Assembly (NCBI GenBank): GCA_022561215.1
Contig: JADFRQ010000007.1
Coordinates: 21,725 to 85,724 of the forward strand
From: Chloroflexota bacterium
GTDB taxonomy: Bacteria; Chloroflexota; Anaerolineae; Anaerolineales; E44-bin32
Reading direction: 5' to 3'
Length of the DNA stretch: 64,000 nt
Shown here: positions 37,853-59,169 of the stretch, piece by piece
How positions within the stretch are numbered: the stretch's first letter is position 1
Layout of the letters: every line of letters begins with the position of its first letter
Notes under the pieces: generated by a model
Database searches by the model: none
What the model was told of the DNA's origin: nothing
The model's input: only the letters and a program-made list of their open reading frames with translations
Translations under genes and position numbers: made by a program

Positions 37853-39049
37853 GTGCACAATGATGAAATGCGCGCCTTGACCCATCTTCGCCGCTGGTGG
37901 ATGCTATGCGTATTGCTCTCAGCCAGCATCTTGGTGGGGGCGGCCATCTTGCTCTCGCATATATGGCTTGCAAACAACGTGCTGCGCTGGACGATAATCA
38001 CGGCAAGTGTTTTGCTGCTCATGCTAGGAATTTTATGGAAAAATCTTCAACATAACCGAGACTTGGAAACAGGAAAATTGCGCGCTCATTTCGGCGCCGG
38101 AAACTGGCTCAGCCTGGCCCGCGGGATGTTAATCGCATTGCTCGCCGGATTTCTTTTTTCACCACTTCCCGTTGGTGTTTGGGCCTGGCTGCCGGCAATT
38201 CTCTACACCTTGGCCGCCGTAAGCGACTATTTCGACGGCTTCCTCGCACGCATTTCACATTCCGTGAGCGAGCTGGGAGAGATTTTAGATCTTGAGTGGG
38301 ATGCACTCGGACTGTTAATTGCCGTATCACTATCCATCGGGTATGGGTTTCTATCCGTCTGGTTCTGGCTGTTTGGGTTCGCACGTTATCTGTACATTTT
38401 TACGCTCTGGATCCACCGCAAGGCAGGAGGAAAGGTGCTTGAGCTGCCACAGAGTGTTGCCCGGCGACCGATTGCGGCGTTGACAATGGGATTCATGACC
38501 GTAATGCTTTGGCCCATAATCTCGCAACCCTCGACAACGTTGGCGGCTGGGATCTTCGCCATCCCGTTCACGGCCAGTTTCTTGCGGGATTGGATGGTGG
38601 TAACCGGCAGGCTGGATGTTAATGGTGCGAACTACAAACGCCTGAAGAGCAATCTGGAGCCCTTTTTATTCGATAAAATTCCCGTTGTTTTGCGTATGCT
38701 CGTATTGATCGCTGTGCTTCCGGAATTATTCCGTTTGGGACCTTCGCGCCAGGTACTCACACAATCCTTCACACTGCTTAACGGCGAACTTCTGGATGGC
38801 TTTCTCTGGATTTTGTTGGGTATCAAATGGGTCAGCATAATCATGATCTCTATTGGCGCTGCAGGCAGAACTGCTGCGTTTTCCCTGCTTATACCACTCG
38901 GCCTAACGATAGTGGGCTCGCAGTTAACATTGTCGAGAGCTGTGGGCCTCGCGGCAACACTAGGTATCATGATTGTTGGGAGCGGATCCTGGTCGCTGTG
39001 GAAACCGGAGGAGAAAATTTTCCGGCGACGAGCTGCGGAAAAGGGATGA
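37853..39049 (+). CDS. CDP-alcohol phosphatidyltransferase family membrane protein
   Basis: Full motif DYFDGFLARISHSVSELGEILDLEWD = Dx2DGx2ARx8Gx3Dx3D; multi-TM. Confidence 0.9.
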   Translation: MHNDEMRALTHLRRWWMLCVLLSASILVGAAILLSHIWLANNVLRWTIITASVLLLMLGILWKNLQHNRDLETGKLRAHFGAGNWLSLARGMLIALLAGFLFSPLPVGVWAWLPAILYTLAAVSDYFDGFLARISHSVSELGEILDLEWDALGLLIAVSLSIGYGFLSVWFWLFGFARYLYIFTLWIHRKAGGKVLELPQSVARRPIAALTMGFMTVMLWPIISQPSTTLAAGIFAIPFTASFLRDWMVVTGRLDVNGANYKRLKSNLEPFLFDKIPVVLRMLVLIAVLPELFRLGPSRQVLTQSFTLLNGELLDGFLWILLGIKWVSIIMISIGAAGRTAAFSLLIPLGLTIVGSQLTLSRAVGLAATLGIMIVGSGSWSLWKPEEKIFRRRAAEKG

Positions 39050-39286
39050 TCCTGTTGCTCGATCCGACCAACATTTTTCGCCTTTCAGGCGGTAGGATTT
39101 TCCGCAGTCGATGGTGTAAACGTGGTGCTCCTATTACGATCGCGCGATCTTTTCTTCGGAGGGCTGGGTCAGCGTTTGGTGAGTGCGTTTACCGGGGTCG
39201 AGAGTAGGAAGAGGATGAAGGAGTGAGCGTATTCATGTGTGGAAAGTGGCGAGAATGACGCGTTGAATTTCGTTTTAATCCTACGC

Positions 39287-40237
39287 TTATGCAGGGGTCC
39301 GGCCGACAAAATCCAATTGGTGTGCGATGTACACGAGTTCATGTTGCTCAATTTGTGCGCGCCTCTTGGCGATCCATGTGGCAAAGATATCCTGATCGAG
39401 AGCAGACGAATGTGATAATTGCTTCTCGATGGTGGTGATGGTGAAATGCAGAAAATAGGCTTCTGCATGCACATACTTTCCCTTTTGCGGGTAAATGACC
39501 CAATCTGAAGCGCCCACTTCTGCTATTTCCCCTCCATACGAATGAAGCGTTTCGAATAAATGCCGTCCGGTTTTGCTGTCGCCCGACGGGCTTCCCTTGA
39601 CGATGCGCTGATCCATGCTTTCGTGATAAAGATCGAGTACCAGCGAATCAAAAAGCGGATCGATTGCAGGCTCGAATATGCTGAGGCCATCGAAATTCAG
39701 CGTGAAATAAAAGAGCCCCCCAGGTTTCAGAAGGGAAAATATATGCCCAATGGCTGAGGAAAGATCAACCAGATCGAGAAATGCATGCGCCACAACCAGA
39801 TCCCAAAGCGGGCCAATTTGGTCAGATTGAAAAGCGAAAAAATCGACTGTATTAAGCTGAATATTAAAGTGAGCGCCAGTCTTGGTGAAAATGAGTCGAT
39901 CATTCGTTTCTTGGCCAATTTCGAATCCATGATCATTGGCCCAGCTTCGAAGTCTCCGATTCGCCTGCGCAATATTCGTGTAGGAGCTATCGAGAGCCGT
40001 AATCTTCGCTGCGGGAAGTAGTTCCCACTCCATGATGCGCTCGATCATCGTTCCAATCCCAGTGCCAATTTCCAATACAGACGCTGCTTGATCAGCATGT
40101 TCGTCCGCGAGCATTTGTTTGAGCCGCTCCCAAACCAGGCGATTCAGCGCGCGATCATCAACCGTCTTCTTCGCCGCTAAATATATCTGAAAGGCGTCGT
40201 TTTCACTAGTTGCGCGCATTGCACCAAGTGAATTCAT
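39287..40237 (-). CDS. class I SAM-dependent methyltransferase
   Basis: ASVLEIGTGIGTMIERI, DLVVAHAFLDLVDL, LKPGGLFYFTL. Confidence 0.85.
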   Translation of the reverse strand: MNSLGAMRATSENDAFQIYLAAKKTVDDRALNRLVWERLKQMLADEHADQAASVLEIGTGIGTMIERIMEWELLPAAKITALDSSYTNIAQANRRLRSWANDHGFEIGQETNDRLIFTKTGAHFNIQLNTVDFFAFQSDQIGPLWDLVVAHAFLDLVDLSSAIGHIFSLLKPGGLFYFTLNFDGLSIFEPAIDPLFDSLVLDLYHESMDQRIVKGSPSGDSKTGRHLFETLHSYGGEIAEVGASDWVIYPQKGKYVHAEAYFLHFTITTIEKQLSHSSALDQDIFATWIAKRRAQIEQHELVYIAHQLDFVGRTPA

Positions 40238-40259
40238 AATTTCGCTACGCTCTGATATT

Positions 40260-40607
40260 TTAGCTTGCTTCGGGTTCCTCTGGCAGTCGGTAATGCAGAA
40301 TAAGCGCGATGACGAGCACCAGCTCATCGACTTTCGTGGCATAGCCTTGGAAATCGCGTCCGCCACTCGGGATCCAAGCGATGATAGTAAGGACGGCATA
40401 GGCTGCAAAGGCAAGCGTGACTAGATTTTTTCTCTCTCGAAGGAACGCAAGGTTAAGGAAAAATACAGCCAACAAGCCAAGGTAACCGACCGCGTTCAGC
40501 GTAAACAGAGGGCTGAATTCCCCAATTACGACATTGAGGTAAAGATGGGATAGAGCCGTCACTAAGCCGGTGATGAAGATTAAATTGCGTAAAGTCGATC
40601 GTTTCAT
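40260..40607 (-). CDS. small four-TM membrane protein
   Basis: Hydrophobic 115 aa ORF; LNAVGYLGLLAVFFL; within the same-strand cluster; ggaggaac RBS. Confidence 0.75.
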   Translation of the reverse strand: MKRSTLRNLIFITGLVTALSHLYLNVVIGEFSPLFTLNAVGYLGLLAVFFLNLAFLRERKNLVTLAFAAYAVLTIIAWIPSGGRDFQGYATKVDELVLVIALILHYRLPEEPEAS

Positions 40608-40631
40608 TTTGTTCCTCCGTCTGATTTGTGA

Positions 40632-41753
40632 TTAGTGAATTGCCGGCTCAACCTGAATTTTATTTTTAATTGCTCGCTCGCCGAATTGATGCAAGAAAGC
40701 TCTTGATCTTAGTGTGTTTTCTCGCCATGTAGGATGCTGGTCGAAGGTTTTGCGTGCCGCCAAGCCGATTTGCGCCAGCGCATCGCGGTTGCGGCAGAGA
40801 TCGCGGATGGTTCTGGCAAGCTGCGTGTAGTCGCCTGGCGTGATGAGATAGCCGTTGATCTTGTGTTGAATAAATTCAGATGCACCACCCGCGGAAGAGG
40901 CGATCACGGCTAGCCCAAACCCCATCGCTTCCAAATAGGCGATGCCATAGCCCTCATAAAGTGATGGGATGACAAGTACATGCTGCTCGGCAAGCAAATT
41001 GGCAATGGAACCACTGGATTTGGAACCCAAAAGCTTTACACGCTCTACCAGCCCATAGCGTGCAATCGCTTGCTTGATTTTCTTGGTATATGTTAAGTTC
41101 ACACGATCATCACCGACAATCTGCAGCTGCCAAGGTTCTGCATGCAGCTCCGCCAGAGCTTGCAGGAGGACATGCAATCCTTTGCGCGGAATCAGATTGC
41201 CCAAGAAGAGAAGCTTAAGCTCGCCCTCGCTCTGAGCGCGCTCCAAGATTTGATCTGTGTTATTCCTTGGATTTAAGTGGTCTCCGGCGGGAAGTGAAAC
41301 CAGCGATGGCTTCTGAGAGCCCACCAAGGATTCGACGCTCTCTTTCGTGCTCTGACTATTAAATACGAAGCCATCGACATGTTTAAGATATTGCAGCTCA
41401 ACCAAGCGGTAAAACCAATTCAAGGCAAGCGAATTGGGTTCGCTCGAACGCAGGTGATGAACGATGGAAATAATTGGAAATTCGCCCGCAGCCTTGAGCC
41501 GTTGGTTGAGAATAAAGAGCGAAGGATGGTTTAATTCATCTTGCAGAAGGAGATCGATCGAATGTCGTCGAAGGTCCCAGATTAGCGAGCTTGAAAAGTT
41601 ATGTGCGAGATTGCGCCAATAGCCGTGTGAATTAATGGAGAAAACTGTAACCTGGTCGCCTGAATTTCTCAGATGACGTACCAGCATGCGATCATATAAA
41701 TATCCCCCAGTTTGTATGTCGAGATCGCCATAAATGAGCAGTCCGATCTTCAT
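40632..41753 (-). CDS. glycosyltransferase family 4
   Basis: MKIGLLIYGDLDIQTGGYLYDRML, LLFLGNLIPRKGLHVLLQAL, VIPSLYEGYGIAYLEAMGFGLAVIAS. Confidence 0.92.
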   Translation of the reverse strand: MKIGLLIYGDLDIQTGGYLYDRMLVRHLRNSGDQVTVFSINSHGYWRNLAHNFSSSLIWDLRRHSIDLLLQDELNHPSLFILNQRLKAAGEFPIISIVHHLRSSEPNSLALNWFYRLVELQYLKHVDGFVFNSQSTKESVESLVGSQKPSLVSLPAGDHLNPRNNTDQILERAQSEGELKLLFLGNLIPRKGLHVLLQALAELHAEPWQLQIVGDDRVNLTYTKKIKQAIARYGLVERVKLLGSKSSGSIANLLAEQHVLVIPSLYEGYGIAYLEAMGFGLAVIASSAGGASEFIQHKINGYLITPGDYTQLARTIRDLCRNRDALAQIGLAARKTFDQHPTWRENTLRSRAFLHQFGERAIKNKIQVEPAIH

Positions 41754-42130
41754 TTAAGCTCCTGAATGTACTCAGCCCAGGCGATCTCGTCTTCCCATAA
41801 TCGAAGCGTCAGGGACTTGACATTTGTACTTTCGTAGGGGGCAGCAAAAGTTAAACAAAAGATACGAGCAAAATTTTCGATACTGGGGTTAAGGCCCGCG
41901 AATTCTGCCAAATCATTAAGCGTGAGATCACGGTAGCGTTTGATCAGCGAATTAAGATGATCTTCCAACTTTACAATATCCACGAGATAACCATGCTCAT
42001 TTAATACTTGGCCTTCAAGCCTAATTTCCACCTTATAGCTGTGAGAATGAAGATCGTTTTCAGGCCCCCAATCCTCGCCCACAAGAAAATGCTGGGCGAC
42101 GAAGGATCGCCGCAAACCTAATGCGTACAT
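41750..42130 (-). CDS. 6-pyruvoyl-tetrahydropterin synthase/QueD-family protein, Cys-less variant
   Basis: SFVAQHFL...GPENDLHSHSYKVEIRLEG zinc-His pattern; 4-nt overlap with the GT4 gene. Confidence 0.85.
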   Translation of the reverse strand: MYALGLRRSFVAQHFLVGEDWGPENDLHSHSYKVEIRLEGQVLNEHGYLVDIVKLEDHLNSLIKRYRDLTLNDLAEFAGLNPSIENFARIFCLTFAAPYESTNVKSLTLRLWEDEIAWAEYIQELK

Positions 42131-42237
42131 AGTTTCTGCCCTATCTTCGCAAGAGTGTGGTCGCCAATTCGGTTAGTAAGTAGAAACGCAAAAGACAAGG
42201 AAAAGTTGCGCGCTAAACGCAGCCGGATCACAGGCTT

Positions 42238-43269
42238 TTAGCTCTCATAGCGCAGCAGAACCTGGATTGTTTTCGCGGCTTGTTTATCCAAAAGCGCGAA
42301 AGCTTGCGCAGCCGATTCAAGAGAAAAGCGGTGGGTGATTAATTCTGCCGGCCGAATAGTTTCAATCATCTGCAGCGCAAAATTCAAACGGCGTTTTTTC
42401 TTCCAGCGTCCACTAAGCTCAGGGCGTATTGTGCTTACCTGGCTGCTGATAATGCGAATCCGATTTCGATGGAAAGAGCGGCCTAAATCAAGAGTCGTCT
42501 CTTTTACGCCATACCAAGAACCGATAACGATGCGCGTGTGGAAACCAGATGCAGAAATCGCTTGATCCAAGGCCTTGGGGTTGCCTGAGAGCTCGTAGAT
42601 CAAATCCGCAGACCCATCATTATCCGGCGCTCCAAAATTTTGGCTAAGCGTTGCGGAGAGATCGTTTATTTCGGGATCGAAGCTGTATTCTGCGCCAAAT
42701 TTGCGAGAAGCACTTCTGCGCAGCTCGAATCGATCCAGGGTGATCAGCCTGGCAAGGGGTATCCGTGCGAGCAGCGCAGTGGTCAGCAAACCAACGATGC
42801 CCTGACCAAAGATGGCTATTCGTTCTCCCAATAGCGGATTGCCGTCATGCAGCAAATTGACAGCGGTTTCCATATTGGGAAGAAAGGTGGCTTCTTCATC
42901 GGACAGGCCATCTGGAACGGCGATCACATGATCAACATGCGATTTAAACAGGCTTTGATGAGGATGGAAAGAGAAAACCCTTCGGCCCAACCAATCTTCA
43001 TCTACTCCGTTACCGATGTCCTCAACCTGACCGACGGTGGAGTATCCGTATTGGTGTGGATAATTGAGCTCGCCTGGAAGAGAGGGGATAACACTGTCAA
43101 CCACCATGTCCCGGGGAGTTTGACCGCGATAGAGCAACAGCTCCGTTCCGGAACTAATCGCCGAGAGCCGGGATCGGATGAGTACTTCCCCATCCCCAAG
43201 AGCCTCTACGTCGAGGGTTCGGATTTCCACTTTGTAAGGCTCAACAAAGAAAAGTGCGCTCGCTTTCAT
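42238..43269 (-). CDS. zinc-binding alcohol dehydrogenase (MDR family)
   Basis: LSAISSGTELLLYRG, YPHQYGYSTVGQVEDIGNGV, IAIFGQGIVGLLTTALLARI. Confidence 0.88.
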   Translation of the reverse strand: MKASALFFVEPYKVEIRTLDVEALGDGEVLIRSRLSAISSGTELLLYRGQTPRDMVVDSVIPSLPGELNYPHQYGYSTVGQVEDIGNGVDEDWLGRRVFSFHPHQSLFKSHVDHVIAVPDGLSDEEATFLPNMETAVNLLHDGNPLLGERIAIFGQGIVGLLTTALLARIPLARLITLDRFELRRSASRKFGAEYSFDPEINDLSATLSQNFGAPDNDGSADLIYELSGNPKALDQAISASGFHTRIVIGSWYGVKETTLDLGRSFHRNRIRIISSQVSTIRPELSGRWKKKRRLNFALQMIETIRPAELITHRFSLESAAQAFALLDKQAAKTIQVLLRYES

Positions 43270-43979
43270 GGGTCGCCGTACTTCAGTTCGCCCCAAAGAA
43301 CAAGATCTGAGGCAAACATCTGCCAGTGTGGTTGATCCATTCGAGGAAATGGTGATCGAAACGTGGTATTCCCACTCCCCATGGAGTGCAATCCGTTAAC
43401 AAAAATTGGCGCAATGGTAAGCACAATTAGATCGACGATTCGTTCTTCAAGAAAGCTGCGGATGATCTGCGCCCCACCTTCAACCATTAACCTGCGTAAT
43501 CCTTCTTTGGCGAGCAGCCCAACGAGAGCTTTTAAGTCTATGTGTACATCTTCATTTGTTGGAAGTGTATGGATGGTGGCGCCGGCAGCCTCGAGCATTT
43601 TTCGACGAATTTCTGGGGCTTCCCGCCCAGCGATAATCCAGGGTTTCCGTTCGTTTTGAAATATTCTGCTTTCTAGGGGTGTTCTTAACTGACGATCAAG
43701 AATAATGGGTTGTGGATCCCGTCCTTCTGAGAGTCGCACCGTGAGCTGCGGATCATCGGCTAAAATTGTTCCTATGCCAACAAGGATCGCATCATGATGC
43801 GCCCTCAAATGATGAGTCATACGATTCGAGATTGGGTTGCTTAGAACTAATTGAGCATTATTTTCCAAGGCAATACTGCCATCCAGACTTTGGGCATAAC
43901 TCAAGGTGATCCGGGGACGGTCTGCTGGAAAGTTAAGCTCTTGGAGCCATTGCAGGAGCTGATCAAATGGATCGCTCAT
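43266..43979 (-). CDS. RibD C-terminal-domain reductase (pyrimidine/dihydrofolate reductase-like), no deaminase domain
   Basis: PRITLSYAQSLDGSIA, HHLRAHHDAILVGIGTILADDPQLTVR, LMVEGGAQIIRSFL; ATGA overlap with the MDR gene. Confidence 0.9.
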   Translation of the reverse strand: MSDPFDQLLQWLQELNFPADRPRITLSYAQSLDGSIALENNAQLVLSNPISNRMTHHLRAHHDAILVGIGTILADDPQLTVRLSEGRDPQPIILDRQLRTPLESRIFQNERKPWIIAGREAPEIRRKMLEAAGATIHTLPTNEDVHIDLKALVGLLAKEGLRRLMVEGGAQIIRSFLEERIVDLIVLTIAPIFVNGLHSMGSGNTTFRSPFPRMDQPHWQMFASDLVLWGELKYGDP

Positions 43980-44619
43980 GCCCATTTGGAGGGGGTACTC
44001 GATTTCCATTTTCCCTTGGCGCAAAGGTTATGTGATGGTTCAAGCGCAGGACTTTCGTGCGCAGGTAATTTTCGTTTTCTTTCGTGACTTTGGATGGCAG
44101 TGGAACTCTATGCGTGATTTTCACCCCGAGGGCGCGTAAATCGGAAATTTTCCTGGGATTGTTTGTGAGCAGGCGTACGGATTGAATTTCCAAATCTTCA
44201 AGCATACAGGCTGCCATTGTGTAGTCTCGTTCGTCAGCTTGATGGCCAAGCAAGATATTCGCCTCAACTGTATCGTATCCTTGATCTTGGAGATTGTAGG
44301 CTAGCAGTTTATCCTGAAGCCCAATCCCGCGACCCTCTTGTGGCAAATAAATAATCAAACCTTGTCCCTCCGCAGCGATCGCCTGCAGTGATGAGCGTAA
44401 CTGCTGCCCGCAATCACAACGGCTTGACCTCAACACATCCCCTGTAAAACACTCGGAATGCACGCGGACCAAAACGTTTTTCCGTCCACGAACCTTTCCC
44501 ATTGACAGTACGAGGTACTTATCTGTATCCTGAGAATTAGTGTAAAGACGAAGACGGAATTCACCTTCAGGAGTTGGAATTCGGGCCGGGGCCTGGCTGT
44601 CGATTTTCAGATCGCACAT
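43963..44619 (-). CDS. ribA: GTP cyclohydrolase II (stand-alone)
   Basis: VRVHSECFTGDVLRSSRCDCGQQL zinc motif, LPQEGRGIGLQDKLLAYNLQDQGYDTVEAN, RLLTNNPRK. Confidence 0.93.
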   Translation of the reverse strand: MCDLKIDSQAPARIPTPEGEFRLRLYTNSQDTDKYLVLSMGKVRGRKNVLVRVHSECFTGDVLRSSRCDCGQQLRSSLQAIAAEGQGLIIYLPQEGRGIGLQDKLLAYNLQDQGYDTVEANILLGHQADERDYTMAACMLEDLEIQSVRLLTNNPRKISDLRALGVKITHRVPLPSKVTKENENYLRTKVLRLNHHITFAPRENGNRVPPPNGHERSI

Positions 44620-45221: not shown

Positions 45222-46352
45222 TTGAATAATTTGGCTTTTATCGATAAAATGCGAGAGCAAATTCCAGAAGAAGAGCAGAGAGACGCTCTTGCGCAGCTGC
45301 GTGAATTTTCGCAATGGCTGCTCATTGTACCGCTCGTAATAATCCTGCTTTTTGGATGTGGGCAATTAGGATTATTCACCACCTCCAAAGTGGCTTATGC
45401 TGATACGAGTTCGTCCCTGGATGCTGAATATGGCCCGTGGCCTTTTCTGGCAGTGCGTGCCATACGTCCAGAAATCGTCGCAGAGATAAAGCTGGACCAA
45501 GAAGATACTTCCCAATCAGATCAGGTTTTCAATGATCCGCTAGCCTATAATTCCGAGTGGCTTGAGGGCGGACCCGCAGCGGTGATCGTTGTGGCGCTGG
45601 CGCCAACCGATGAACCGATCCCGGCGGCCTCGTTGCCGTTGGACACATCCGAGCCAGCAAGCTCAACGGCACTTCCTGAAAACACAGAAGCGGTTACTTC
45701 AACAAGCGGCCCTTCAACAACCGCCCCGCAAGCATTAAGCACATCGCTTCCAGGTTCGACAAATACTGCAGCCGTAGCGGCGACTGCCGTTGCTACATCC
45801 AGTTCAACCCCTGATCCTACAGCGACACTCGATCCTACAGCCACAACAACCCCGACCACGGCACCTACTGCGACCAGCGCACCCGTCAACTACTGTGCCA
45901 ATATCAATTGGGGCGCGACACAGTTTGAGAATTGGCAGGATAGCGATACAGTCTGGAAATTCGTATTCTACTTCTCCAACAATAACAATATCTCGATGTA
46001 CTTGACGAACTACTCGATATCGTGGAGTCCGGACGCAGAACTGCACCTCAATCGGACCAAAACCAAGCTATTCCCTGGATCGAACCGACCGAAACTAATT
46101 AAAGCGAAACAATCCTCACCAGGAACTTGCTCCAGCTGCTCAGGCACGACATACGAATACCCGGGGCAATCTGGACAAGCTGAAATCTACAACATGTTCT
46201 GCAGGGATCGGCCGTGTGATGAAAGCAATGCCGTTCTGGTAATCCCTGAAGCCAACTACTCGCTTACGGCGAATGCTACCTTCACATTCTACGGCCCGAG
46301 TGGTACGGTCAATTGTTCAAAAACCTGGACAGCTAGCGGAATGGCGAATTGA
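45222..46352 (+). CDS. membrane-anchored surface protein, Ser/Thr/Pro linker, Cys-rich C-terminal domain (paralogue 1)
   Basis: N-terminal FSQWLLIVPLVIILLFGCGQL anchor, TPT-rich linker, then NYCANINWGATQFENWQDSDTVWKF domain. Confidence 0.8.
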   Translation: MNNLAFIDKMREQIPEEEQRDALAQLREFSQWLLIVPLVIILLFGCGQLGLFTTSKVAYADTSSSLDAEYGPWPFLAVRAIRPEIVAEIKLDQEDTSQSDQVFNDPLAYNSEWLEGGPAAVIVVALAPTDEPIPAASLPLDTSEPASSTALPENTEAVTSTSGPSTTAPQALSTSLPGSTNTAAVAATAVATSSSTPDPTATLDPTATTTPTTAPTATSAPVNYCANINWGATQFENWQDSDTVWKFVFYFSNNNNISMYLTNYSISWSPDAELHLNRTKTKLFPGSNRPKLIKAKQSSPGTCSSCSGTTYEYPGQSGQAEIYNMFCRDRPCDESNAVLVIPEANYSLTANATFTFYGPSGTVNCSKTWTASGMAN

Positions 46353-46737
46353 TTTCAGAAACGCGCGTAATCGCCTCCATAAAAAATTTACTCCCGCGCG
46401 CTTCGAGATCGTGCTCGAAGCGCGTTGGCATTTTGGTGATTATGAATTGCGAATAAACTGCAATAAGCGGCACAAATTCAAGCAACCGAACAAGAATTCG
46501 CGCCAAAAAACGAAACAAATGGCGAATTGTAAGCCGCCGGTAAGTCAATACGAGCTCGTATGGTACTGGAGTACCTTGACTTTGATCGCCTGACTTTTCA
46601 GAATATAGCTATCGATAAAGTAAGCCTGATTGGATGAATGCAAGCTGGGCGCTTGTTGGCATAGAACCCACCGTACAAGAATAGACATCGTTATAGAGAG
46701 GTCCGTGGTTGGACAGTTTGTGTTATTGGAATGCTGA

Positions 46738-48393
46738 ATGAAACGTAAGGTACAGTTCGATAGACGTCTTTTCGCCGAGGAGCAGCGTTACAAACCTCCC
46801 CCGCATGAAGAAAATTCGTATGATCAATTGCGCACATTTTCGCAATGGTTATTACTCGTTCCGTTCATCATACTGGTTCTTTTTGGCGCCGGACAATTAG
46901 CGATCTTCGGTAAAACGGCGATCGCCTTTGCAGATACTCCCTCGAGTCTTTCCGCAGGTTATTCACCCTGGTCGTTCCTTCCAGTTCACCCGGTGTTGGC
47001 GAGTATCGTGGAGGAGATTCGCCGCGATTTTGAAAAAGTAGGCGACCCGCGCCTGACATTCAGTGATCCGGTCACAGAACTGGGATACGCATTTATAGAA
47101 AAAGAAACGACGGTACTCGTGGCCGTGCTTCCCGCCTCGCGAGAGCCAGTTCCCACGCCTGCGAACAACCCTGGGGCGGTTGATTCACCACCAGCAGGGC
47201 AACCATCGGCGGAGCCCAGTTCAACCAGCATACCCTTGCCCACAGCAACACAATTGCTGATCCCATCGGAGACTGCACCGCCGCCGACCTCTCCGTCTGA
47301 CACGGAATCGCCGCCACAACCAACTTCACCAAGTGAAGAACAGTCAACTGCAGTTCCGACGGCAGCCACCGATGTACCTTCGACTACTATTCCAACTGCG
47401 ACCACGCCTCCAACAGCGACGGCGGTTGTTGATAACCCCATTGGTTGGTGGGACAGTTGTTATGACTACCGCCAGCCAATAGCCGTGAATACGGCAGGCG
47501 CATCGGTAACAAACGGGCACACAGTCTCTTTCACCTTTAACCATCAAAGTTTGGTCTCAGCTGGAAAATCGAGGAGCGATGGTCGAGATCTGCGCATCGT
47601 CGGAGTTTCGGGATCGAGTTGGACTCAGCTCGATCGTGTGGTCGGTGATGATTCGGCATGGAACCGCTCGAACACCCGTGTCCTCTTCAAGCTGCAATCC
47701 GCCATCGCTGCACAGAGTTCGGACACGAGCTACTATATGTATTACGGGTGTTCAACCGATGGCGATGTCCCTCAAGATCCCGCCAAGGTCTACTGGTATG
47801 CCAACGACTTCAACCAGCAGAGTGATCTCGACGACTGGACCCAGCGCTTCGTTGACGATCAAGGAGAGTGGGACATTGTAGGCGAAACGCTAGGAAACCG
47901 AGGTGGGAGAAATTCAACCGTGATCCCCAATATTAACGACAAGTTGGTGTTAACCGCCCGCCCAACGATAAGAGATCTCTATGTCAAATTTGATTTCATG
48001 GCAATGGACAATGATCTTATCGCCGTGGGCTTGTGCTCCAACGACACCAATCCCAATGGCTTTTATATGGGGATTAGCCAGGACCGTTGGTTTGATGATG
48101 ACGACGGGCCGGATCAAATCGGCTATTGGAATAACGCCTCCGATAACGGGGCTTCGGGAAAGTCATTCAGTCAGGATCAATGGTATGAAGTCACCCATGC
48201 TTGGACCTCAAGCAGCATCCAAAGCACATTTGCGGGCGGAAATTTCCAATGGAATTCTGGCCCCGCATCGGCGAATTATTTCTGCTTCGCCAGCAACGCT
48301 ATGAGCAGAGCGCATTTTGATAACCTGACGATTCGTCTGCATGTCAATCCTGAACCTACAATTGCCATGGGTAGCGAGCAGAGTTTGCCCTAA
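46738..48393 (+). CDS. membrane-anchored surface protein with DUF2341-like/LamG-like C-terminal region (paralogue 2)
   Basis: Same N-terminal module as 45222..46352; WWDSCYDYRQPIAVNTAGASVTNGHTVSFTF and SSDTSYYMYYGCSTDGDVPQDPAKVYWYANDF. Confidence 0.82.
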   Translation: MKRKVQFDRRLFAEEQRYKPPPHEENSYDQLRTFSQWLLLVPFIILVLFGAGQLAIFGKTAIAFADTPSSLSAGYSPWSFLPVHPVLASIVEEIRRDFEKVGDPRLTFSDPVTELGYAFIEKETTVLVAVLPASREPVPTPANNPGAVDSPPAGQPSAEPSSTSIPLPTATQLLIPSETAPPPTSPSDTESPPQPTSPSEEQSTAVPTAATDVPSTTIPTATTPPTATAVVDNPIGWWDSCYDYRQPIAVNTAGASVTNGHTVSFTFNHQSLVSAGKSRSDGRDLRIVGVSGSSWTQLDRVVGDDSAWNRSNTRVLFKLQSAIAAQSSDTSYYMYYGCSTDGDVPQDPAKVYWYANDFNQQSDLDDWTQRFVDDQGEWDIVGETLGNRGGRNSTVIPNINDKLVLTARPTIRDLYVKFDFMAMDNDLIAVGLCSNDTNPNGFYMGISQDRWFDDDDGPDQIGYWNNASDNGASGKSFSQDQWYEVTHAWTSSSIQSTFAGGNFQWNSGPASANYFCFASNAMSRAHFDNLTIRLHVNPEPTIAMGSEQSLP

Positions 48394-48634: not shown

Positions 48635-50224
48635 TCAATCTGAGATAATGTTAAAGTCATACGGCGCATCGTACGTTGAAAAATAACTAATATCTTCCAG
48701 AAGCGGATAATTTGCTCCGAAATATTCATTAAGCACGATCCGGAATGTATTCACAGGTGATATCTCTTCATAGATTAGGGTGCTCGATCTGTCGGGCAAA
48801 TAATAGGCATTCAAAATTGCCATTCGGTTGCTTCCGAAATGTCCTGGACCATGATCTGCTTGCAAAATGATGATGGGTGGCTTATCGGAGTTCGCTAGGA
48901 TTGCCCCCAATACGGATTGCATCCTAGTATTGATAAACACAACTTGATTGATATAACCTGTGATGTAGCTCTCGTCATCATTCAATTCTTCTGTTTCAGC
49001 CAGGGTGAAAAATTTCGGTAGTTCAACATCATCATCTGGCGCAAATACAAATGGCTTATGCGGGATAACAAGATGCGCGAAGGTAAATTTCGGGCCTTTA
49101 ATGGTGGGAGCTTCGCTGAGTTTATCGAGCACGAATAAGATACGCTCGCGATGATCTCTAAACGGCGCCTGGACATCTGGAGTGAGAATTTTTGGAACCA
49201 CGATTACCGCGTCCGTCATGATCAGGAATGCGGAGTTCTGGATAAGCAATGCTTCGAAGGCGTTCATCTGCCCAAAAGCATAGAATTCAGCGATCACGCC
49301 TGAATTTCGAGTGATGTAAAAATCAGCGTCTTCAAACTGAGTCCACATGAAACCCGTTTCAAAAGCAACGGTTACGTACCCAAATTCTTCGAGCACTCGG
49401 CGAAATGTGCTTTCTCGGATCAAAGGCCATAACATGGAGCGGTCGGTGTTATCCTCTTGGAAATCGTCCCGCAAGGATTGCAAATAATCCATATTCAAGG
49501 AGGATGCAAGCGACAGCTCGGTTTGTGCGTAGTTGCTTTGGCTCTTTTGGGCAACGACGAAGCCTGCATCCGAGAGCCAGTCCAGGAAAGCTGAATTATC
49601 GTATCCATAGTATTCGGCAAGTACATCCTGGCGCCCGTAGCCGTCAAGAATGATGTAGTAAATATCCGGTAGATAATCTAACTCCTGTGGCTGAAAGGAA
49701 GACGTTTGAAGCTCTGGCGGAGCCTCCAACCAGGCGCGCGATGATCGAATTCCAAAATCCGCCAGTTGAAATGCAGGCACGACAAGAAGAAAAAGCAGCA
49801 GAAAATTCAGACCACGCGTTATCGAACGCGGGTTTTGTACCTTTTTCGCAACAACCCATACCCCCCCCACCAAGATGGCGATCCACAGAGGGATCAGCAC
49901 TCGATGCCTGGCAATTGATAGGCCAAAAGGGAATGAGCTCCTAACAAATTGATACAAGTGCCCATAACTGAAAAACAAGATTACGGTTAGGCTGCTGAGA
50001 ATCCCGGCTCGATGCCAATTGCGGAGAATGAGCCGGTAAAGAATGAGCAGAATTGTAATCGCGGCCAATACAAGCACAAGGGAGCGGTATGCGCTCGTGG
50101 GTCTTAATTGATTGATATTAATCGCGAGAAGGGCTATGGCTGGATAGATAGCTGCGAGGAAGGGGTGGAGGACTAATTCGGTTGCCCTGCGCATGTTCCA
50201 CTTCCTCACTGAGGGGTTCGCCAT
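48635..50224 (-). CDS. membrane sulfatase/alkaline-phosphatase-superfamily protein
   Basis: N-terminal TM segments then LPDIYYIILDGYGRQDVLAEYYGYDN and IILQADHGPGHFG. Confidence 0.8.
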   Translation of the reverse strand: MANPSVRKWNMRRATELVLHPFLAAIYPAIALLAININQLRPTSAYRSLVLVLAAITILLILYRLILRNWHRAGILSSLTVILFFSYGHLYQFVRSSFPFGLSIARHRVLIPLWIAILVGGVWVVAKKVQNPRSITRGLNFLLLFLLVVPAFQLADFGIRSSRAWLEAPPELQTSSFQPQELDYLPDIYYIILDGYGRQDVLAEYYGYDNSAFLDWLSDAGFVVAQKSQSNYAQTELSLASSLNMDYLQSLRDDFQEDNTDRSMLWPLIRESTFRRVLEEFGYVTVAFETGFMWTQFEDADFYITRNSGVIAEFYAFGQMNAFEALLIQNSAFLIMTDAVIVVPKILTPDVQAPFRDHRERILFVLDKLSEAPTIKGPKFTFAHLVIPHKPFVFAPDDDVELPKFFTLAETEELNDDESYITGYINQVVFINTRMQSVLGAILANSDKPPIIILQADHGPGHFGSNRMAILNAYYLPDRSSTLIYEEISPVNTFRIVLNEYFGANYPLLEDISYFSTYDAPYDFNIISD

Positions 50225-56021: not shown

Positions 56022-57002
56022 ATGATGAAAAAATCCCGCGATATCACGCTGCGAGATTTATTTTTGGCGAGGTCGGCGATTGCCAATTCTGTCACACGCA
56101 CCCCGCTCATTGCCTCAGCGCCGGGCAATTTTGGGAGCGGGCATGCCGTATTCCTGAAGCTCGAAAACCTGCAAACGACGGGATCCTTCAAAATTCGGGG
56201 AGCGGCCAATAAATTAATAGGGTTGACTCCCGCAGAGCGCCAAAACGGGGTGGTCGCTGTCTCGAGCGGGAATCACGGCCGTGCGATTTCCAAGATCGCA
56301 CGCCAGCTTGAGATCAAAGCCACGGTTTGCATCACGGATAAAGTCCCTGTGCACAAGGTCGAAGCGATGCGCGCCCTGGGTGCAGATGTGATCATCGCTG
56401 GTGATAATGTGGATGAGGCCGAGGCGCATGCCCTTCAATTGGTGGCGAAGAAAGAGATGATCTTCGTCAACCCCTTTGATGATCCCCATGTTATTGCCGG
56501 CCAGGGAACAATCGGCCTGGAGATCCTGGAGGATTTGCCCCGGGTTGATACCGTCATAGTGCCCACCTCTGGCGGAGGATTAATTGCCGGAATTGGCCTG
56601 GCGCTGAAGTCCGCTGACCCTGCGCTGCGTGTGGTGGGTGTTACCATGGAGCAGGGCGCGGCGATGTACCTCAGCCTGCAGGCCGGCCATCAAGTCCCGG
56701 TTAACGAGTACGAGACGCTGGCCGATGCCTTGGTCGGAGGTATTGGTCTAGAAAATCACTACAGCCTGGCCATGTGTCAACGTTATGTGGATGAGATCGT
56801 GCTGGTTTCGGAACAGGAAGTTGGACAAGCGATGGCTTACCTGTTGCGTGAAGAACATCTGGTGGTCGAAGGTGGTGGAGCAGTCGGCATTGCCGCGCTC
56901 TTGCAGGGCAAAGTTGAGCTTGGCGAGCATGTTGCTGTTGTGATCAGCGGAGGGAATGTGGAACTGGAATTGCTGCTGTCGATTGCAAGGAAATATAATT
57001 AA
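56022..57002 (+). CDS. threonine/serine dehydratase-like PLP enzyme (no ACT domain)
   Basis: LENLQTTGSFKIRGAANKL PLP-Lys motif, SSGNHGRAIS, VPTSGGGLIAGIGLAL. Confidence 0.93.
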   Translation: MMKKSRDITLRDLFLARSAIANSVTRTPLIASAPGNFGSGHAVFLKLENLQTTGSFKIRGAANKLIGLTPAERQNGVVAVSSGNHGRAISKIARQLEIKATVCITDKVPVHKVEAMRALGADVIIAGDNVDEAEAHALQLVAKKEMIFVNPFDDPHVIAGQGTIGLEILEDLPRVDTVIVPTSGGGLIAGIGLALKSADPALRVVGVTMEQGAAMYLSLQAGHQVPVNEYETLADALVGGIGLENHYSLAMCQRYVDEIVLVSEQEVGQAMAYLLREEHLVVEGGGAVGIAALLQGKVELGEHVAVVISGGNVELELLLSIARKYN

Positions 57003-57029
57003 CTGCTCTGCTGTCGTTGAAAGGTCAAC

Positions 57030-58022
57030 ATGATGGATGTATTAATCTTAAATGAATCGGAGCTGCGTCAATGTGTTGCGTTGGATCATGCGGCCATCGA
57101 GGCCGTGGAGGGTGGGTTTACGGCTCTCGCGGAGGGAAAGGCCCATATCCCCGCGATCGTACATATCGAGGTGCAGGATTACAACGGGGAAGTGGACATC
57201 AAGGCCGCTTATATTGAAGGGCTGGAGTATTTTGCAATCAAAGTCGCCTCCGGGTTCCTGGACAATCACAAACTTGGCCTGCCGACAGGCAGTGGGCTGA
57301 TGATGTTAATTAAGGCCCAGACCGGCGTGCCGCAGGCATTATTGTTGGATAACGGATACCTGACGGACGTACGCACGGCCGCTGCCGGGGCAATTGCAGC
57401 CAAATATCTTGCCCCAGATAAAACTCAGGTTGCCGCAGTGATTGGTTCGGGTATGCAGGCACGTTACCAGGCCAGGGCATTGAAACTTGTGCGTGATTAC
57501 ACCCAATTAATTGTTTATGGAATTACGGATGCAAGTGTGGGCGCCTATGTCGATGAAATGCAGGAAACCCTCGGGCTGGACGTGCGCCGCGCCGCCACGG
57601 CCGAAGAAGCCGTGCGTGAGTGCGATGTGTTAATCACCACGACCCCTTCGAGAGAGCCCATTGTGTTCAGCGATTGGCTGCATCCCGGGCTGCATATCAC
57701 CAGCATGGGCTCGGATTCGGAGGGCAAGCAAGAGCTGGAAGCACGTGCCCTGCTCGCTGCCGATCGTTTGGTTTGCGATTTGAAAGCACAGTGTTTTCGC
57801 TTCGGTGAGCTGCAGCACGCCCTTCGGGAAGGTCTTTTAGCAGAGGATGCGGAAATTACGGAGCTCGGGGAGTTAACATCGGGGTCGAAAGCCGGGCGCT
57901 CGGGCCCTGAGGAGATTACAATCTGTGATCTTACCGGAGTAGGCGTGCAGGACACTGCGATCGCACTGCTGGCCTACAACAAAGCCGTGGAAAAAGGACT
58001 CGGTTTACGTGTAGGATCCTGA
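57030..58022 (+). CDS. ornithine cyclodeaminase/mu-crystallin family protein
   Basis: YFAIKVASGFLDN, LLLDNGYLTDVRTAAAGAIAAKYLA, AVIGSGMQARYQARAL. Confidence 0.93.
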   Translation: MMDVLILNESELRQCVALDHAAIEAVEGGFTALAEGKAHIPAIVHIEVQDYNGEVDIKAAYIEGLEYFAIKVASGFLDNHKLGLPTGSGLMMLIKAQTGVPQALLLDNGYLTDVRTAAAGAIAAKYLAPDKTQVAAVIGSGMQARYQARALKLVRDYTQLIVYGITDASVGAYVDEMQETLGLDVRRAATAEEAVRECDVLITTTPSREPIVFSDWLHPGLHITSMGSDSEGKQELEARALLAADRLVCDLKAQCFRFGELQHALREGLLAEDAEITELGELTSGSKAGRSGPEEITICDLTGVGVQDTAIALLAYNKAVEKGLGLRVGS

Positions 58023-58044
58023 AGTGTTCGAGGAGGCTTAATCA

Positions 58045-59169
58045 ATGAGTGATAAATTTCAACCGTTTGAATTGGAACGGATGATGTCGAAATGGGAACA
58101 CCGCGTGGAATACAATCTTTCCGAGAGCGGGGTGCACCCGCTTTCCATGCGCGAATTGGTTGAAGATCAAGATGAACTTGAACAGTTGATTTCGACGAGT
58201 CTGAATTACCCGCAAACCAACGGAACACTCGAGCTGCGCCAGCGAATTGCGGCGCTGTACGCCGATGCGAAGCCCGAGAACATTTTGGTGACCAATGGTT
58301 GTGCAGAGGCGAACTTCAACACGGTGCGCACGCTGATGCAGCCCGGCGATGAAATTGTCGTCATGACGCCCAATTATGCACAGATTTGGGGAATCGCCGA
58401 AAACCTGGGCCATCCTCCGCGGGCATTGCCTTTGATTGAAAATGGCGGCTGGTCGCTCGATCTGGAGGCACTGCAGAATGTTGTTTCCGAAAAGACAAAG
58501 TTAATTGCGGTCTGCACCCCGAACAACCCCACCGGATATATCCTTAAACAGGATGAAATTGACGCACTTGTGGCCGCTGCGGATCGCGTCGGTGCGTGGC
58601 TGCTTGCGGATGAAGTTTATGCGGGAACGGAACATGCCAGTGATGAAGTCACGCCTTCCTTATGGGGGCGCTACGATCGTGTTATCGCAATGGGCAGTCT
58701 CTCGAAAGCCTATGCGTTGCCCGGCCTGCGTATCGGATGGGTAGTGGCGCCGGAAGAAATGGTAGACGACATTTGGGCGCGCATGGAATACACTACGATT
58801 TGTGCCACGTTATTGAGCAATAAACTGGCCGCGATCGCACTGCGACCCGAGGTCCGGAGCAAATTGTTAAACCGTACGCGCGAATATGTGCGCGGCGGCT
58901 ATAAAATTCTCGAAGAGTGGGTTGATGAGCAGGACGGAATCTTTCAAGTGATTCCCCCAGAAGCCGCCGCCATCGCTTTTCTGCGTTATAAGTTGGAAAT
59001 TAATTCGACTCAATTGGTTGAACATCTCATTCAGGACACGAGCGTATTCGTCGCCCCTGGCGATCATTTCGGCCTGGACGGCTTTTTACGCGTGAGCTAC
59101 GGATTGCCAACCGATTATTTAAGGGAGGGATTAAGCCGCATCCATGCCGGGGTTCAGTCGTTGGGTTAA
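58045..59169 (+). CDS. class I/II PLP aminotransferase
   Basis: CTPNNPTGYIL, LLADEVYAG, SLSKAYALPGLRIGW; aggaggct RBS. Confidence 0.95.
   Translation: MSDKFQPFELERMMSKWEHRVEYNLSESGVHPLSMRELVEDQDELEQLISTSLNYPQTNGTLELRQRIAALYADAKPENILVTNGCAEANFNTVRTLMQPGDEIVVMTPNYAQIWGIAENLGHPPRALPLIENGGWSLDLEALQNVVSEKTKLIAVCTPNNPTGYILKQDEIDALVAAADRVGAWLLADEVYAGTEHASDEVTPSLWGRYDRVIAMGSLSKAYALPGLRIGWVVAPEEMVDDIWARMEYTTICATLLSNKLAAIALRPEVRSKLLNRTREYVRGGYKILEEWVDEQDGIFQVIPPEAAAIAFLRYKLEINSTQLVEHLIQDTSVFVAPGDHFGLDGFLRVSYGLPTDYLREGLSRIHAGVQSLG

Follow-up and report, generated by a model that had tools for sequence, protein, structure and literature searches.

The locus considered here occupies positions 37853–44619 of a 64,000-nt stretch (the window) of contig JADFRQ010000007.1 of a Chloroflexota bacterium (assembly GCA_022561215.1). 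It raises the question of whether its GTP cyclohydrolase II (GCH II) gene, ribA, belongs to riboflavin synthesis or opens a different pathway. Very likely, the cluster encodes a dedicated pathway that begins with ring-opened GTP and leads elsewhere than to riboflavin. The best overall explanation, to which a probability of about 0.5 was assigned, would be that GTP is diverted to a pyrimidine or pterin that bears a ribityl chain, a sugar and a methyl group and is probably anchored in the membrane.

The eight genes, families, coordinates and overlaps described in a first-pass annotation of the window were borne out: all eight are open frames, and seven of the encoded proteins exceed the Pfam cut-offs of their families. 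On the minus strand run ribA (43963–44619; GCH II, 210 bits; catalytic residues kept), a RibD-C type reductase (43266–43979; RibD_C, 146 bits), a BchC-like MDR-family dehydrogenase (42238–43269; ADH_zinc_N, 38 bits), a PTPS-fold protein of a subfamily of its own (41750–42130; PTPS, 90 bits), a GT4 glycosyltransferase (40632–41753; Pfam, 122 bits), a small DUF7475-like membrane protein (40260–40607; 30.5 bits, just under the cut-off of 31.3) and a class I S-adenosylmethionine-dependent methyltransferase (39287–40237; Pfam, 38 bits). On the plus strand, convergent with the methyltransferase gene, lies a CDP-alcohol phosphotransferase gene (37853–39049; CDP-OH_P_transf, 58 bits), whose product belongs to a cluster-specific subfamily and has a C-terminal hydrophobic extension. 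The reductase and MDR genes overlap by 4 nt (43266–43269), as do the PTPS and GT4 genes (41750–41753), and ribA overlaps the reductase gene by 17 nt (43963–43979), provided that the latter starts at the ATG at 43979. Within the locus there is no ribB, ribE, ribH or deaminase gene, and the reductase protein itself is RibD_C alone, with no RibD deaminase domain.

The window genome (G000) is a metagenome-assembled genome (MAG) of 3.39 Mb in 126 contigs, 90.8% complete. The window ribA is its only GCH II gene, and the window reductase is its best RibD_C match. Both facts would suit a normal riboflavin locus flanked by unrelated genes, the outcome that the first-pass annotation had associated with a sole ribA. 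However, no match to ribB (DHBP synthase, PF00926), ribE (the lumazine-binding riboflavin synthase domain, PF00677) or ribH (lumazine synthase, PF00885) was obtained anywhere in this assembly, while the controls were positive, so that the single GCH II does not make a riboflavin operon. The search for a second complete rib operon, which the annotation had proposed, found none in the genome.

The same conclusion was reached from a sample of 61 genomes of the order, in which the PTPS subfamily was present in 24, GCH II in 27 and RibH, above cut-off, in 6. GCH II tracked the PTPS gene, being present in 23 of the 24 carriers and in 4 of the 37 other genomes (Fisher p = 1e-11); with the RibH genomes excluded, the figures were 19/20 and 2/35. 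The sole carrier without GCH II was G020, whose contig stops beyond the reductase gene. Since GCH II follows the PTPS gene across the 61 genomes, it can be said that within the order it is mostly retained for this cluster and not for riboflavin, RibH being missing from 20 of the 24 PTPS carriers. The riboflavin explanation was thus rejected as hardly credible, and the earlier proposal that the GCH II product is diverted from riboflavin is supported, the rest of that synthesis being unmatched in the genome. A second type of ribA, about 46–50% identical to that of the window, was seen at five further loci (L092, L093, L095, L096 and L097). These come from Chloroflexota genomes that have no full RibH gene, and at three of the loci a RibD_C gene is present as well.

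Synthesis of coenzyme F420 or its precursor F0 was the other known destination considered. F0 likewise requires a ribitylaminopyrimidine, F420 is made by Streptomyces and haloarchaea, and a passage of Zallot et al. (PMC5041015) mentions an unpublished involvement of PTPS-IV in F420. Against this, the F0 marker CofH (TIGR03551) had no match in the window genome, for which F420 was rejected, and among the 24 PTPS carriers of the order strong CofH-like matches occurred only in G029, all of them under the family cut-off. A role in F420 or F0 synthesis is therefore very improbable.

The families of the cluster are also found together in other genomes, of two domains, as the first-pass annotation had expected of a true pathway. 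The core of MDR, PTPS, GT4 and methyltransferase, together with a GTP ring opener, the RibD-C reductase and the CDP-alcohol subfamily, was found in Chloroflexota, Salinivenus, Proteobacteria, Streptomyces, Rhizobiales and haloarchaea. When the window proteins were mapped on relatives, the order ribA-reductase-MDR-PTPS-GT4-(small membrane protein)-methyltransferase appeared in many Chloroflexota, as well as in Methylococcaceae, Salinivenus and two MAGs labelled as Deltaproteobacteria and Bathyarchaeota. The linkage observed in 20 loci of the order, several of whose contigs end inside the cluster, was: GT4 in 19, MDR in 16, reductase in 14, ribA in 13 and CDP-alcohol in 7. The recurrence of an ordered gene set in dozens of genomes is far beyond chance. 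In a sample of the phylum the PTPS subfamily was present in 30 of 399 genomes at 47–60% identity, separated by a gap from other PTPS proteins at 37% identity or below. No relatives of the MDR protein were found among viral contigs, and the open reading frame family F05 was discarded as an artefact, being an antisense frame of the PTPS gene.

Related clusters with other arrangements were found in more distant bacteria. Plasmids of Streptomyces fungicidicus and S. globisporus carry genes for CDP-alcohol, MDR, PTPS, GT4, methyltransferase, LPG_synthase_TM, creatininase and ribA, with the reductase in addition in S. globisporus. The Rhizobiales clusters contain sulfatase, LPG_synthase_TM, CDP-alcohol, ribA, MDR, PTPS, GT4, methyltransferase, RibD_C and cytochrome b561 genes, plus an FkbM methyltransferase in two out of three, and similar sets occur in Methylosinus OB3b, Thiodictyon and Microbacterium. 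The sulfatase-like family that adjoins the CDP-alcohol gene in Rhizobiales also does so in Methylococcaceae, Thiodictyon and two Chloroflexota (L032 14639–16003, L071 1465–3105, L048 3472–4377 and L050 2719–3570).

Among haloarchaea, the PTPS subfamily was present in 119 of 201 sampled genomes of the class (about 59%; matches of at least 100 bits). Twenty loci, chosen by descending rank, showed MDR in 19, methyltransferase in 16, CDP-alcohol and DUF7475-like genes in 14 each, GT4 in 11 and GTP cyclohydrolase III (GCH III) in 8. In a joint tree of MDR and PTPS the haloarchaea clustered together, with Salinivenus adjacent. It is very probable that the cluster makes a shared molecule in many bacteria and over half of the sampled haloarchaea. 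A fused GFO/IDH-aldo/keto reductase recurs beside the haloarchaeal clusters (L065 3919–5889, and also L036, L103, L104, L108 and L110) and is a candidate for an extra pathway enzyme.

These comparisons bear on the idea that the locus consists of two adjacent modules, one a GCH II-reductase pair serving some known function, the other an envelope glycolipid module that has nothing to do with it. It is true that the window CDP-alcohol gene lies on the opposite strand and that the cluster is split in G052, where MDR, reductase, small membrane protein, LPG_synthase_TM and CDP-alcohol genes are on one contig, PTPS, GT4 and methyltransferase genes on a second and ribA on a third; every part is nevertheless retained. 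But the MDR and PTPS genes lie between both gene sets in an order conserved across phyla, both sets are also retained in the other arrangements of Streptomyces and Rhizobiales, and the MDR, PTPS, GT4 and methyltransferase families agree in their pairwise distances (r 0.83–0.92), although species relatedness accounts for part of this. Two separate modules are thus unlikely, and a single pathway is taken as the basis of what follows.

Three different ring openers stand beside the one core. In the window GCH II the zinc Cys triad and the equivalents of Tyr105 (E. coli numbering), Asp126 and Arg128 are all kept. GCH II with the Tyr105 equivalent was found at the Chloroflexota, Salinivenus, Methylococcaceae, Bathyarchaeota and Rhizobiales loci, with L047 unreadable at that residue. 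Both Streptomyces loci have Met at this position and, among loci with a readable GCH II, are the only ones with a creatininase gene; this pairing is one event in one genus and weighs as a single instance. The S. coelicolor GCH II SCO6655 reportedly halts at the formylamino intermediate owing to such a Met. A creatininase-family enzyme of Sinorhizobium deformylates the formylamino intermediate (FAPy) to 2,5-diamino-6-ribosylamino-4(3H)-pyrimidinone 5'-phosphate (DARPP) (PMC9478397), and it is established that FAPy is also the product of archaeal GCH III, which takes the place of GCH II at haloarchaeal loci. Deletion of arfA in Haloferax volcanii causes riboflavin auxotrophy (PMC8305020), so that a single-copy GCH III must serve riboflavin too; the genome of Halolamina rubra encodes two GCH III enzymes, one of them the dedicated cluster copy. 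Since these three alternative ring openers all lead there by established biochemistry, they point to DARPP as the likely entry intermediate of the cluster and form the main case for it.

Concerning the PTPS-fold protein, its predicted fold was confident (predicted local distance difference test score, pLDDT, 95.6), and in 17 relatives the zinc ligands H13, H27 and H29 were invariant, as were E23, D67, N71 and E112 (the C-terminal Glu). Its motif was compared with those of QueD (PTPS-I), PTPS-II, PTPS-III and PTPS-IV. The fold and the position of the ring-binding Glu are common to QueD, PTPS-II, PTPS-III and the window protein. Nevertheless, the position of the catalytic Cys of QueD (CxxxHGH) is occupied by Glu in the window family, which reads GPExxxHSH, and the Asp-His pair of QueD is lost; a separate QueD-like gene is present in the genome. 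The ExxxHSH motif likewise rules out PTPS-II (CxxxxxHGH) and PTPS-III (ExxHGH); compared with PTPS-III, the Glu of the window family is shifted forward by one residue, to the place of the QueD Cys, and is followed by HSH instead of HGH. With the ligands invariant, the fold confident and the QueD Cys and Asp-His pair not kept, it seems reasonable to interpret the protein as probably an active, zinc-binding, ring-binding enzyme with a chemistry unlike that of QueD. In the window genome (L039; G000:C114:11510-11866) the second gene of the PTPS family, which is of QueD type (CKNLHGH), contains an in-frame TGA and is thus either a pseudogene or a gene with a recoded stop, unless the TGA is an error of sequencing.

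The relation to PTPS-IV is closer and at the same time less simple. In the portion of the 2017 AGeNNT paper that concerns PTPS-IV (PMC5445326), GCH II and RibD_C neighbours are described for 561 PTPS-IV (COG0720) sequences, with no established function. The window locus agrees in this, having a PTPS-fold protein beside PF00925 and PF01872 genes, and the Streptomyces, Rhizobiales and Methylosinus loci have MDR, GT4 and methyltransferase genes in common with it. Among the related clusters of the more distant bacteria, those PTPS proteins that were checked bear FGPAQ, the published signature of PTPS-IV. The signature itself is absent from the window family, which reads W/x-G-P/A-E-N. Moreover, PTPS-IV has FGPAQ plus HGA and has lost the second His of HxH, whereas the window family keeps all three His; as PTPS-IV lacks the last His of HxH, the two groups may differ in metal use. 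The window family could be PTPS-V or PTPS-VI, the former being given no clear function in the corresponding passage of Zallot et al. (PMC5041015). The window cluster is thus a variant of the published PTPS-IV/GCH II/RibD_C neighbourhood and a cross-domain dedicated pathway; the set of MDR, GT4, methyltransferase and CDP-alcohol genes, the variants with GCH III or with a creatininase and the occurrence in haloarchaea go beyond the description of that neighbourhood as available in PMC5445326. Searches for SCO6650, phosphohalopterin and combinations of the gene set found no description of the cluster as a whole and no named product in the searchable literature (subscription papers and supplements lay outside the search); the GCH II and RibD_C surroundings of PTPS-IV, of which the first-pass annotation made no mention, were already published. 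At L123 and L125, on Streptomyces plasmids, PTPS-IV genes stand near MEKHLA and cupin proteins, with no other cluster genes, possibly representing a different use of PTPS-IV.

By both sequence and fold, the nearest solved structure to the window PTPS is the orphan protein SCO6650 of S. coelicolor (3D7J). It fits the data that SCO6650 and SCO6655 lie in such a cluster in S. coelicolor, to judge from the gene order in S. fungicidicus and its near-identical PTPS. A similar neighbourhood around SCO6655 had been suggested in the first-pass annotation; this gains indirect support from the kinship with SCO6650 and from the two Streptomyces plasmids that carry the set.

The MDR protein carries an SSGTE motif, lacks the usual catalytic zinc ligands on an alignment reading and has BchC among its nearest families; it may oxidise or reduce a side-chain alcohol. 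Searches of the PDB with the MDR and GT4 proteins gave generic matches only, with no hint of the substrate, and no match was found there for the CDP-alcohol protein, whose single-sequence fold model was too poor for use (pLDDT 54).

The convergent CDP-alcohol gene does have the complete motif DxxDGxxAR...GxxxDxxxD that had been claimed for it, with D125, D128, G129, A132, R133, G142, D146 and D150 invariant in relatives. One subfamily, with conserved stretches outside the catalytic motif, is found in Chloroflexota, haloarchaea, Streptomyces, Rhizobiales and Thiodictyon (hhalign 100%, E 3e-43). Cluster-type genes were also present, unlinked or on separate contigs, in the PTPS-carrying genomes G014, G020, G030, G034, G047, G052 and G059, while long-frame candidates from G013 and G023 (with no PTPS gene) and from the carriers G035 and G060 fell outside the subfamily. 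A relationship was also detected between the small membrane proteins from Chloroflexota and their haloarchaeal counterparts (E 1e-10). The shared subfamily and these related proteins support, but do not prove, a membrane-linked product.

Putting family assignments and gene context together, the following sequence of steps may be proposed. GCH II would open GTP to give DARPP, a step that is well supported. The RibD-C reductase, by family and context, would then convert the ribosyl into a ribityl chain; the 2-amino group would stay, because a deaminase is absent, in the archaeal order of steps. The zinc-containing PTPS-fold protein might bind the ring, be it an aminopyrimidine or a pterin, and act together with the MDR protein to reshape or close this ring or the side chain. 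GT4 would add a sugar and the methyltransferase a methyl group. Finally, because the ribityl 5'-phosphate resembles the polyol-phosphate acceptors of its family, the CDP-alcohol enzyme could join this end to a CDP-activated lipid or polyol by a phosphodiester, with the small membrane protein and the flippase-like LPG_synthase_TM protein of relatives acting at the membrane. The first steps resemble the archaeal entry into riboflavin and F420 (GCH III, ArfB, ArfC), with ring-opened GTP, deformylation and reduction before deamination. Unlike that entry, they are followed by dedicated tailoring genes, and the window genome has no matches to the later riboflavin or F420 enzymes.

In its fullest form, put forward tentatively, the product would be a new lipid-anchored glycosylated pterin or pyrimidine compound, made by one archaeal and bacterial pathway in which the PTPS-fold protein performs a new reaction on a ribityl-diaminopyrimidine, and possibly serving as a membrane redox cofactor or chromophore. 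Several observations weigh against the proposed pathway or its membrane end. RibD_C is absent from the haloarchaeal loci, where the reductase must then be shared with riboflavin synthesis; GT4 is missing at some loci (Salinivenus and several haloarchaea), so that glycosylation is not universal; and the genomes compared are MAGs, that of the window being about 91% complete. In addition, the CDP-alcohol gene is linked in just the 7 of 20 Chloroflexota loci given above, and, given the difference between bacterial and archaeal lipids, a common lipid donor cannot be taken for granted; the partner activated with CDP could instead be a soluble polyol. The last two points agree with a possible, if somewhat doubtful, alternative in which the same pathway yields a soluble pterin or pyrimidine with sugar and methyl groups (a cofactor, pigment, ultraviolet screen or antibiotic-like compound), the CDP-alcohol enzyme using a soluble CDP-polyol or serving an adjacent envelope pathway. 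Some CDP-OH family enzymes are known to make soluble phosphodiesters, and genes resembling inositol monophosphatase and PfkB in Palleronia, and ribokinase in SC52, point the same way; the occurrence of one CDP-alcohol subfamily across domains, together with the membrane proteins DUF7475 and LPG_synthase_TM, speaks instead for the membrane-anchored product.

A pathway present in about 59% of the sampled haloarchaeal-class genomes, and in Chloroflexota, Salinivenus, Rhizobiales, methanotrophs and Streptomyces, amounts to a substantial gap in the present picture of cofactor and lipid metabolism. The cluster explains the lone ribA of Chloroflexota poor in riboflavin synthesis, and places both the orphan SCO6650 structure and the unusual GCH II SCO6655 in a context. 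As a caution, such PTPS genes should not be annotated as QueD, nor such ribA genes as riboflavin synthesis.

Some neighbouring genes of the window may be mentioned. A sulfatase-family membrane protein (48635–50224) with a possible Thr nucleophile context (SNYAQTELS) resembles phosphotransferases of the LtaS/EptA kind; it was excluded from the cluster because it has no relative at any other locus, and it is unrelated to the recurring sulfatase of the sister clusters. At 45222–48393 lie genes for two adjacent proteins with alike N-termini, Thr/Pro-rich stalks and no Pfam match, probably secreted paralogues. Genes for a pyridoxal phosphate enzyme, an ornithine cyclodeaminase-like protein and an aminotransferase stand in a row at 56022–59169, a possible amino-acid-derived pathway.

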